Positions 3,161 through 64,000 of a stretch of 64,000 bases of DNA are shown here, piece after piece (the first letter of the stretch is position 1; the number at the start of each line of letters is the position of its first letter). The notes beneath the pieces are model-generated. The model had not been told where the DNA came from. It saw only the letters and a list, made by a program, of their open reading frames with translations, and made no database searches. The position numbers and the translations under genes are program-made. The stretch is from Onchidella celtica (lineage: Eukaryota > Mollusca > Gastropoda > Systellommatophora > Onchidiidae). The stretch lies in the NCBI GenBank assembly GCA_963931925.1, contig OZ007569.1, forward strand, positions 11,321,663 to 11,385,662, given 5' to 3'.

Positions 3161-4199
3161 TTTGCATGGTTTCATGATAGGCCCAGCGATATTTGGCATT
3201 TATGTGTTTTCATGATAGGTCCAGCACTATTTCGCACTTATGTGTTTTCATGATAGGCCCAGCGATATTTGGCATTTATGTGTTTTCATGATAGGTCCAG
3301 CACTATTTCGCACTTATGTGTTTTCATGATAGGCCCAGCGATATTTGGCATTTATGTGTTCATGATAGGTCCAGCACTATTTCGCACTTATGTGTTTTCA
3401 TGATAGGCCCAGCGATATTTGGCATTTATGTGTTTTCATGATAGGTCCAGCACTATTTCGCACTTATGTGTTTTCATGATAGGCCCAGCGATATTTGGCA
3501 TTTATGTGTTTTCATGATAGGTCCAGCACTATTTCGCACTTATGTGTTTTCATGATAGGCCCAGCGATATTTGGCATTTATGTGTTTTCATGATAGGTCC
3601 AGCACTATTTCGCACTTATGTGTTTTCATGATAGGCCCAGCGATATTTGGCATTTATGTGTTTTCATGATAGGTCCAGCACTATTTCGCACTTATGTGTT
3701 TTCATGATAGGCCCAGCGATATTTGGCATTTATGTGTTTTCATGATAGGTCCAGCACTATTTCGCACTTATGTGTTTTCATGATAGGCCCAGCGATATTT
3801 GGCATTTAATGTGGTTTCATGATAGGTCCAGCAATATTTCGCACTTATGTGTTTTCATGATAGGCCCAGCGATATTTGGCATTTATGGGTTTTCATGATA
3901 GGTCCAGCACTATTTCGCACTTATGTGTTTTCATGATAGGCCCAGCGATATTTGGCATTTAATGTGTTTTCATGATAGGTCCAGCAATATTTCGCACTTA
4001 TGTGTTTTCATGATAGGTCCAGCAAATATTTCGCACTTATGTGATTTCATGATAAGCCCAGCGATATTTGGTATTTACGTGTTTTCATGATAGGTCCAGC
4101 GATATTTCGCACTTATGTGGTTTCATGTTAGGCCCAGCCATGTTTTGCACTTTTATGGTCTCATGATAGGCCCAGCGATATGGCACCTTACGGCCTCGT
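3161..4199. repeat. 38-bp satellite with 76-bp dimer structure
   Basis: About 27 tandem copies of a 38-bp unit built around TTTCATGATAGGYCCAGC. Two unit types alternate: A (GGCCCAGCGATATTTGGC) and B (GGTCCAGCACTATTTCGC), about five differences apart, so the real repeat is a 76-bp A/B dimer. The centre is almost perfectly homogenised while the outermost copies (3161-3202 and beyond about 4040) are diverged, as expected from unequal crossing over. One unit near 3360 has lost two bases. No coding role is evident. Confidence 0.95.
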
Positions 4200-40078: not shown

Positions 40079-40159
40079 ATGACGTCAAAGTTGGAGAAAA
40101 TGTCGAAGGAACTAATAATCCTGGTGCCACTCTTTACTTGTCATGAGGACAACTTTACT

Positions 40160-40522
40160 GTTCACGCAATGACAAATGTTCACGTAAGGACAACTGTTCA
40201 CGCAAGGTCAACTGTTCACGTAAGGGCAACTGTTCACGCAAGGACAACTGTTCACGCAAGGGCAACTGTTCACGCAAGGACAACTGTTCACGCAAGGACA
40301 ACTGTTCACGTAGGGGCAACTGTTCACGCAAGGACAACTGTTCACGTAAGGGCAACTGCTCGCGCAAGGACAATAGTTCACGTAAGGACAACAGTACTGT
40401 CCACGTAAGGACAACTGTTCACATAAGGACAACTGTTCACGTAAGACAACTGTTCACGTGAGGACAATGGTTCACATATTAAGGCCAATTGTTCAGGTCA
40501 CAACTATTCACGTAAGGACACC
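40160..40522. repeat. 18-bp minisatellite, about 20 units
   Basis: The unit is GTTCACGCAAGGACAACT. The first 13 units (40160-40393) are exactly 18 bases, alternating CGCAAGGAC and CGTAAGGGC subtypes. The later units carry insertions or deletions (23, 17, 21 and 15 bases). Because 18 is a multiple of three, frames stay open on both strands (Val-His-Ala-Arg-Thr-Thr on plus, Leu-Arg-Glu-Gln on minus), which makes artefactual proteins. Confidence 0.93.
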
Positions 40523-63441: not shown

Positions 63442-63451
63442 TTTTACTCAC
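63442..63451 (-). other. 5' splice donor of exon 1
   Basis: Minus-strand sequence CAT|GTGAGTAAAA, with the exon's last base at 63452. The GTGAGT hexamer is close to the metazoan donor consensus; the exon side (CAT) is weaker than the usual MAG. Reading through without splicing would carry the motif peptide straight into AT-rich intron, so splicing here is the simplest reading. Confidence 0.75.
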
Positions 63452-63503
63452 ATGAATCCAGCGTTTTCCGCTGTTGAGGTCTGCCCTGTTTTCGGCGTGA
63501 CAT
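63452..63503 (-). CDS. First coding exon of an MSRRKQ-motif C2H2 zinc-finger transcription factor (SALL/BCL11/ZFPM/ZNF521 class)
   Basis: The minus strand reads ATG at 63503-63501, then 17 codons giving MSRRKQGRPQQRKTLDS plus one base of the next codon, ending at a GTGAGT splice donor (intron phase 1). In the SALL, BCL11, ZFPM (FOG) and ZNF521 families the extreme N-terminus MSRRKQxxP, with R3, R4 and K5 central, binds RBBP4/7 and recruits the NuRD corepressor, and it sits on a short first exon. Position 7 G with P9 and Q10 is nearest BCL11 as I recall it, while Q11 and K13 recall ZFPM, so no single family is assigned. An in-frame TGA two codons upstream supports this start. The zinc fingers would lie on exons left of this window. 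The motif is seen; the function is inferred from the family. Confidence 0.82.
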
Positions 63504-63506
63504 TTC

Positions 63507-63548
63507 TCAGGATTCTTCATCAAAAGATTGGTCGCCGTTGGCCTTCAT
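63507..63548 (-). promoter_or_regulatory. Upstream ORF (13 codons), in frame with the main start
   Basis: ATG at 63548-63546 opens MKANGDQSFDEES and stops at TGA 63509-63507. A single GAA codon then separates it from the main ATG, and both frames are the same. The uORF start is in weak context (C at -3, A at +4), whereas the main ATG has G at -3, so leaky scanning to the main start is expected. The peptide is acidic and not recognised. A regulatory role is inference. Confidence 0.45.
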
Positions 63549-63575
63549 GAGGGACAAAGAATAAAAACAACAACA

Positions 63576-63586
63576 AAGATGGCGGC
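63576..63586 (-). promoter_or_regulatory. YY1-type element near the transcription start
   Basis: Minus-strand GCCGCCATCTT matches the YY1 core (GCCGCCATNTT). It lies 73 bases upstream of the main ATG. In animal promoters this motif typically lies just downstream of the start site, which suggests transcription begins somewhere near 63590-63660. No TATA box was seen. Read on the plus strand, the same bases form a near-match to the TISU initiator (ATGGCGGC). Confidence 0.6.
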
Positions 63587-63708
63587 AGTCCATTCGGTAG
63601 TCCACACTCCACTAAATGTTTGTTGTCTTTCACAGTCTCTGTAAATTCTCAGAATTCGAACAATTTCAATAACGGTACTGCTGTCCTTAGGCGACCCTCA
63701 ATAGCCAC

Positions 63709-63724
63709 GGGTCATTTCAGGTCA
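63709..63724 (+). promoter_or_regulatory. DR4 nuclear-receptor site in the promoter
   Basis: GGGTCA-TTTC-AGGTCA is a direct repeat of two nuclear-receptor half-sites spaced by four bases, about 205 bases upstream of the main ATG. DR4 is the classic spacing for thyroid-hormone- and LXR-type heterodimers with RXR. A second exact DR4 lies inside the intron at 43539-43554. Confidence 0.4.
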
Positions 63725-63779
63725 GCCCCAACTGTCCAGGCGGGGAAGTGACCAGCGGGCGCGTGAGGCCAGTCGCGAT

Positions 63780-63789
63780 CCTCGCGAGA
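63780..63789. promoter_or_regulatory. CGCG element (TCTCGCGAGA-like)
   Basis: CCTCGCGAGA matches the palindromic TCTCGCGAGA promoter element (the BANP-type motif of CpG-island promoters in vertebrates) at nine of ten positions. It lies in the most CpG-rich part of the window. Confidence 0.35.
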
Positions 63790-63810
63790 TAAGCGGCTTG
63801 GGGGCAGGCG

Positions 63811-63824
63811 ATTGGCCTGATTGG
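63811..63824 (-). promoter_or_regulatory. Paired CCAAT boxes
   Basis: The minus strand carries CCAATCA and CCAATCG nine bases apart, about 310 bases upstream of the main ATG. NF-Y boxes commonly occur as spaced pairs in TATA-less promoters, and both are in the orientation of the minus-strand gene. Confidence 0.4.
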
Positions 63825-64000
63825 ATCAATCGGATGAAGGGGTGTCAAATCAAACTGACCCTTTCCCCGTCACAACAATGAAAGGCAATGGCCTGTCTAA
63901 ACACAATCATAACAAACACGCGATCAAGTCTCCTCTATTCCCTACGAGATCCTGTTCTTAGCGGCTCTCATTCGACCACTGGTAGTGTGCGGCCTGTGTG

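Follow-up and report, generated by a model that had tools for sequence, protein, structure and literature searches.

The 52 bases at positions 63452 to 63503 of the window (the whole 64,000-nt stretch analyzed here, C3:11321663-11385662 in a 1.14-Gb assembly of 43 contigs) of the minus strand are almost certainly coding exon 1 of an apparently single orthologue of BCL11 (CTIP1/2; Chronophage in flies), with a predicted product of 936 residues. The gene belongs to a known family, has a known N-terminal motif, and is otherwise an ordinary orthologue.

Exon 1 (C3:11385114-11385165) is translated, from 63503 to 63452 of the minus strand, as MSRRKQGRPQQRKTLDS, that is, 17 residues followed by one base; with a length of 52 nt, it thus ends in phase 1. 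Straight after it, at 63451, the minus strand continues with GTGAGTAAAA, and GTGAGT (63446 to 63451) would be the 5' splice donor of intron 1. The initial annotation had described 52 coding bases with a donor-like end, and the translation agrees with it on both counts. The exonic base at -1 of the donor is T, where the consensus has G, and this counts against our interpretation. An in-frame TGA (63509-63507, minus strand) begins six bases 5' of the exon 1 ATG, and the unspliced frame reaches a stop two codons beyond the donor; therefore, the exon 1 reading requires splicing. A search of PDB with the 17 residues and four added alanines gave no match up to an E-value of 10.

An upstream ORF of 28 codons plus TGA (63507 to 63593, minus strand) lies in the main frame and closes it 5' of the start. 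It falls in what is presumably the 5' UTR and promoter-proximal region (63504 to 64000, minus strand). The 1-kb bin with the presumed 5' UTR has a CpG observed/expected ratio of 0.91 (mean 0.68, SD 0.15); this places it within the top 12 of 124 bins but does not make it an outlier. The following features of the region count against our interpretation: the 500 bp 5' of the exon 1 start contain six ATGs, one of which, at -17 (window 63520, minus strand), overlaps the start in another frame, and the main ATG is flanked by G at position -3 and by T at position +4. We also considered dual coding from the ATG at -17, which opens a frame of 139 codons across exons 1 and 2; since 493 of 5000 synonymous shuffles produced a frame equally long, it provides no evidence of a second protein.

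The remainder of the gene was found below the window, within 264 kb of examined sequence (the window, 180 kb below it and 20 kb above it; 5 kb reads N). The sole minus-strand C2H2 array in this stretch is in a 757-codon frame (C3:11252207-11249937), and a CCHC finger is in a minus-strand frame near C3:11273850. In the spliced model, the CCHC finger is encoded by exon 2 (C3:11273366-11273875, minus strand, 510 nt, acceptor CCCCAG, donor GTAAGAG) and six C2H2-type fingers by exon 3 (C3:11249934-11252182, minus strand, 2249 nt including the stop, acceptor TTTCAG). Introns 1 and 2 would measure 111,238 bp and 21,183 bp, both in phase 1, the first part of intron 1 taking up positions 1 to 63451 of the window (minus strand). 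The phases match exactly at both exon junctions, and the 52 + 510 + 2249 nt form a single open frame of 936 residues. Upstream of its acceptor, the exon 2 frame meets a TAA without any ATG between, and the first in-frame ATG of the exon comes 97 codons in, beyond the CCHC finger. With no start codon of its own ahead of its finger, exon 2 thus needs an upstream start exon in phase 1. MSRRKQ is found only once on the two strands of the 264 kb, in exon 1. Judging from these boundaries, exons 1, 2 and 3 are probably spliced together in vivo. The initial annotation had anticipated a spliced zinc-finger gene on the minus strand, continuing in a downstream phase-1 exon; we located the gene on the same chromosome, with exon 2 as the phase-1 exon and the C2H2-type fingers in exon 3.

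We assign the gene to BCL11 on the basis of its CCHC finger, the arrangement of its other fingers, its open frame, its matches in PDB and the need of exon 2 for a start exon. Residues 24-51 of the model match the Pfam family CCHC_BCL-11A (PF25491) with 48.8 bits (cut-off 27). The six C2H2-type fingers begin at residues 194; 430 and 458; 823, 851 and 881, a 1+2+3 order which we take to be the BCL11 layout, and the sixth is of C2HC type. The initial annotation had proposed a protein search with the assembled transcript; using the spliced model, the five best PDB matches were all to BCL11A, over fingers 4 to 6 (lowest E-value 4.7e-48). BCL11B was among the top 11 rows, over the middle pair of fingers (4e-28), the CCHC finger of BCL11A (9b4p) gave 1.7e-5, and Sal-like 3 reached only 1.5e-13. 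The model also has one match to the F/YSxxLxxL/Y motif (YSMRLKQL, residue 359), described as the nuclear-receptor (NR2-binding) motif of BCL11A in the available portion of PMC7158892. Because 47 of 2000 shuffles contain such a motif, its support for BCL11 is weak.

Across the genome, a BCL11A finger query matched C3:11250039-11250311 with 80% identity and the next place with 41% (150 of 2053 candidates scored). The initial annotation had suggested a lineage-diverged copy, for which this search gave no sign of an extra gene; BCL11 thus appears to be single-copy in this genome. The BCL11 CCHC model (cut-off 27 bits) scored 54.5 bits at the C3 gene and 43.2 bits at C8:42537464-42537547 (plus strand). 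This other BCL11-type CCHC finger counts against our interpretation. No second BCL11 finger gene stands out among the scored candidates, and the C8 place possibly belongs to another gene of the MSRRKQ families. The initial annotation had left the family open on the residues of the N-terminal motif; the gene downstream settles it as BCL11, and not as SALL, ZFPM or ZNF521.

A chance MSRRKQ frame in non-coding DNA has to be weighed as an origin of exon 1. For 64 kb (both strands, all frames), a local first-order Markov model predicts 0.0020 occurrences of MSRRKQ, 1.6e-5 of MSRRKQx[KRN]P and 2.0e-7 of MSRRKQGxPQ, values to be used as guides only since the patterns were chosen after the sequence was seen. 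In the 1.14-Gb genome, a degenerate MSRRKQ pattern had 128 matches and its reversed control 97, so that MSRRKQ alone is weak evidence at this scale; for MSRRKQxxP the corresponding numbers were 12 and 3. Nine of 30 inspected degenerate MSRRKQ loci truly encode MSRRKQ. Besides exon 1, one of them has P at position 9 and two have a phase-1 GTRAG within 150 bases (in one case within the motif itself), which indicates that parts of the pattern do occur by chance. None of these eight other loci, however, has P9 together with K/R at position 8 and a phase-1 donor, as exon 1 does. Exon 1 also precedes the BCL11 gene in the right strand and phase, and at 52 nt it is similar in length to its human BCL11B counterpart, for which about 58 nt were calculated. 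We therefore find a chance origin barely credible, and it is the gene downstream, not the statistics of the motif, that decides the identity of exon 1.

Hardly more probable is that exon 1 belongs to a different zinc-finger gene with a NuRD motif and sits upstream of BCL11 by accident. The SALL, ZFPM and ZNF423/521 families also start with MSRRKQ, and the first 12 residues of exon 1 share 8 with the printed SALL4 peptide and 9 with BCL11B, a small difference. However, the minus strand has no strict C2H2 match in the interval from exon 1 to BCL11 exon 2, which itself requires a phase-1 start exon, and the SALL fingers and a ZFPM-type finger are found on contig C8, each preceded on its strand by an MSRRKQ start. 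By eye, seven of the 12 MSRRKQxxP matches encode it properly, with GRP (exon 1), IHP, ARP, SRP, SRP, SNP and NKP as residues 7 to 9. Four of the seven are on C8 (17639351, minus; 43973614, plus; 40280531, minus; 44986696, minus). The MSRRKQSRP start at C8:40280531 precedes by 138.5 kb the SALL fingers at C8:40141746-40142012 (minus strand), which a SALL1 finger query matched with 76% identity, against 41% for the next among the matches listed; the C3 locus, where we looked for the paired double finger of SALL, is absent among the matches listed for this query. The MSRRKQSNP start at C8:44986696 precedes by 96 kb a CCHC_ZFPM2 match (PF25445; C8:44890595-44890678, minus strand; 33.6 bits, cut-off 27), the only place in the genome matched by this finger model, which did not match the C3 gene. 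For three of the seven starts, exon 1 included, a gene of the predicted type lies 96-139 kb downstream. The rule of the initial annotation, that an MSRRKQ start marks a zinc-finger gene, thus fits two further genes in position and strand. Proteins of the ZNF423/521 (OAZ) type have an array of about 30 C2H2 fingers, and no such array is present in the spliced gene, with its six C2H2-type fingers; over the genome, the ZNF423/521 query was swamped by generic C2H2 fingers. G7 occurs in one of the seven MSRRKQxxP starts, that of BCL11 exon 1, and is by sequence comparison a BCL11-like residue: human BCL11B begins MSRRKQGNPQHL (PMC4505893, from the part of the text available).

A third explanation, compatible with exon 1 being the BCL11 first exon, is that it is real but limited to certain isoforms, another promoter and first exon giving rise to a BCL11 protein without the NuRD peptide. 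We consider this possible, if rather unlikely. The fly protein Ush is described as having alternative promoters, with the NuRD peptide only in isoform Ush-B (available text of PMC7891773), and the 111-kb intron offers ample room for a similar arrangement. The length of this intron leaves a chance that an alternative first exon is the main one, which we count against the preferred reading. On the other hand, an unsystematic look at the locus revealed no alternative first exon, and exon 2 is without an early ATG.

Taking exon 1 as the start of the BCL11 protein, its function may be outlined by analogy. The fingers would bind DNA and the CCHC finger would dimerise the protein, while the basic N-terminal MSRRKQGRP would dock into RBBP4/7 (and MTA), bringing NuRD to target genes and resulting in their repression. 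RBBP4/NuRD recruitment through the N-terminus of a DNA-bound BCL11 repressor is thus a likely mode of action. According to the accessible parts of PMC7158892 and PMC8079813, BCL11B binds NuRD in vivo only with the MSRRKQ motif, and binding is weaker when Ser2 is phosphorylated or mutated; in BCL11A, Arg4 inserts into RBBP4/7 (PMC10679446, in excerpt). The peptide of exon 1 retains S2, R3, R4, K5, Q6 and P9, and docking into RBBP4/7 as in BCL11A/B is consequently the best inference. Residues 129-350 of Bcl11b, without the peptide, still bound RBBP4/7 in pulldowns from purified mixtures (available sections of PMC8079813), which argues against a sole role of the peptide.

No other gene was recognised in the window. 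A loose six-frame zinc finger expression had nine isolated matches in it, most of them in low-complexity frames, and a strict C2H2 pattern had none. ARAGORN predicted no tRNA in the window, and Rfam gave no match there at gathering score. The window has 39 stop-to-stop frames of at least 110 aa; the 20 scanned with Pfam gave no match at the curated cut-off, and several, but not all, of the 19 outside the scan are simple repeats. Within intron 1, positions 3170-4181 are a tandem array with a unit of 38 or 76 bp (26.6 or 13.3 copies), and positions 40157-40475 are an 18-bp tandem array of 17.5 copies that one plus-strand frame reads without a stop as TVHART-type repeats. The stretch C3:11399534-11400538, located some 14 kb 5' of exon 1, is repetitive, by eye a short-unit tandem array, with two minus-strand frames open for 335 and 342 codons. 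Below the BCL11 gene, C3:11218777-11222517 (minus strand) has retroelement-like frames: a gag-like frame of 236 codons, one stop codon, and a pol-like frame of 1010 codons in the same frame, in which a zinc knuckle, reverse transcriptase and integrase were recognised by eye only. Elsewhere in the assembly, contig C43 is mitochondrial; it has a COX3-like frame on the minus strand, then ND2-like and COX1 frames on the plus strand (COX3 and ND2 named by eye), and the COX1 frame holds five TGA codons. Euthyneuran gastropods have this mitochondrial arrangement, with a ribosomal RNA expected after COX1, and the animal is probably one of them. After COX1, C43 has no frame above 100 codons and, by Rfam, no ribosomal RNA.

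An exon of 52 nt located 111 kb from the next one is readily missed in annotation. Without it, the predicted protein would lack the peptide that binds the corepressor and, unless a different first exon took its place, would start only after the CCHC finger. The gene also provides a probable mollusc data point for the NuRD motif in protostome BCL11. We did not meet this in the part of the BCL11/NuRD literature consulted, and it may well be in print. In flies, a proteome-wide sequence survey listed Ush and OAZ alone as proteins with the N-terminal FOG repression motif (available portion of PMC7891773). Since this BCL11, probably of a gastropod, carries the motif nonetheless, BCL11 likely had it before protostomes and deuterostomes diverged. 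A broader and doubtful proposal is that the exon with the NuRD peptide is an old module that BCL11 can use or omit, dating from before that split, lost or unannotated in flies, and switched on or off among isoforms by a promoter of its own, as in Ush. If this were true, the switch at the distant exon 1 could yield repressing and non-repressing BCL11 isoforms.

The gene resembles vertebrate BCL11A and BCL11B in its MSRRKQG.PQ start on a short exon of its own, the CCHC finger in the next exon, the six C2H2-type fingers in 1+2+3 arrangement and the F/YSxxLxxL-type motif. In contrast to vertebrates, there is apparently a single gene here where they have two, our model splices exon 2 straight to the finger exon whereas vertebrates have an optional exon 3, finger 6 is C2HC, and intron 1 is long. 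In the peptide, R8, Q11 and R12 correspond to N, H and L of BCL11B. In human BCL11B, the 19 residues of exon 1 are MSRRKQGNPQHLSQRELIT and those of exon 2 begin with CAGAGGCTGA (PMC4505893, accessible part); read against the BCL11B sequence, this junction is consistent with phase 1. Chronophage (CG9650), the single fly orthologue, has six fingers with a C2HC sixth (PMC9482335, in excerpt), and the gene described here is like it in all three respects. One BCL11 gene each is reported for fly and Daphnia in the available text of PMC9482335 and PMC2889900. The BCL11 described here differs from that of the fly in carrying the motif, as far as the survey, with Ush and OAZ alone, goes. With SALL and ZFPM (FOG, Ush), the gene shares an MSRRKQxxP start that lies, in this same genome, on the strand of the fingers and at a long distance 5' of them; it differs from them in its finger architecture and in residue 7, which is G in BCL11 and S in the two other starts placed here (SRP and SNP).
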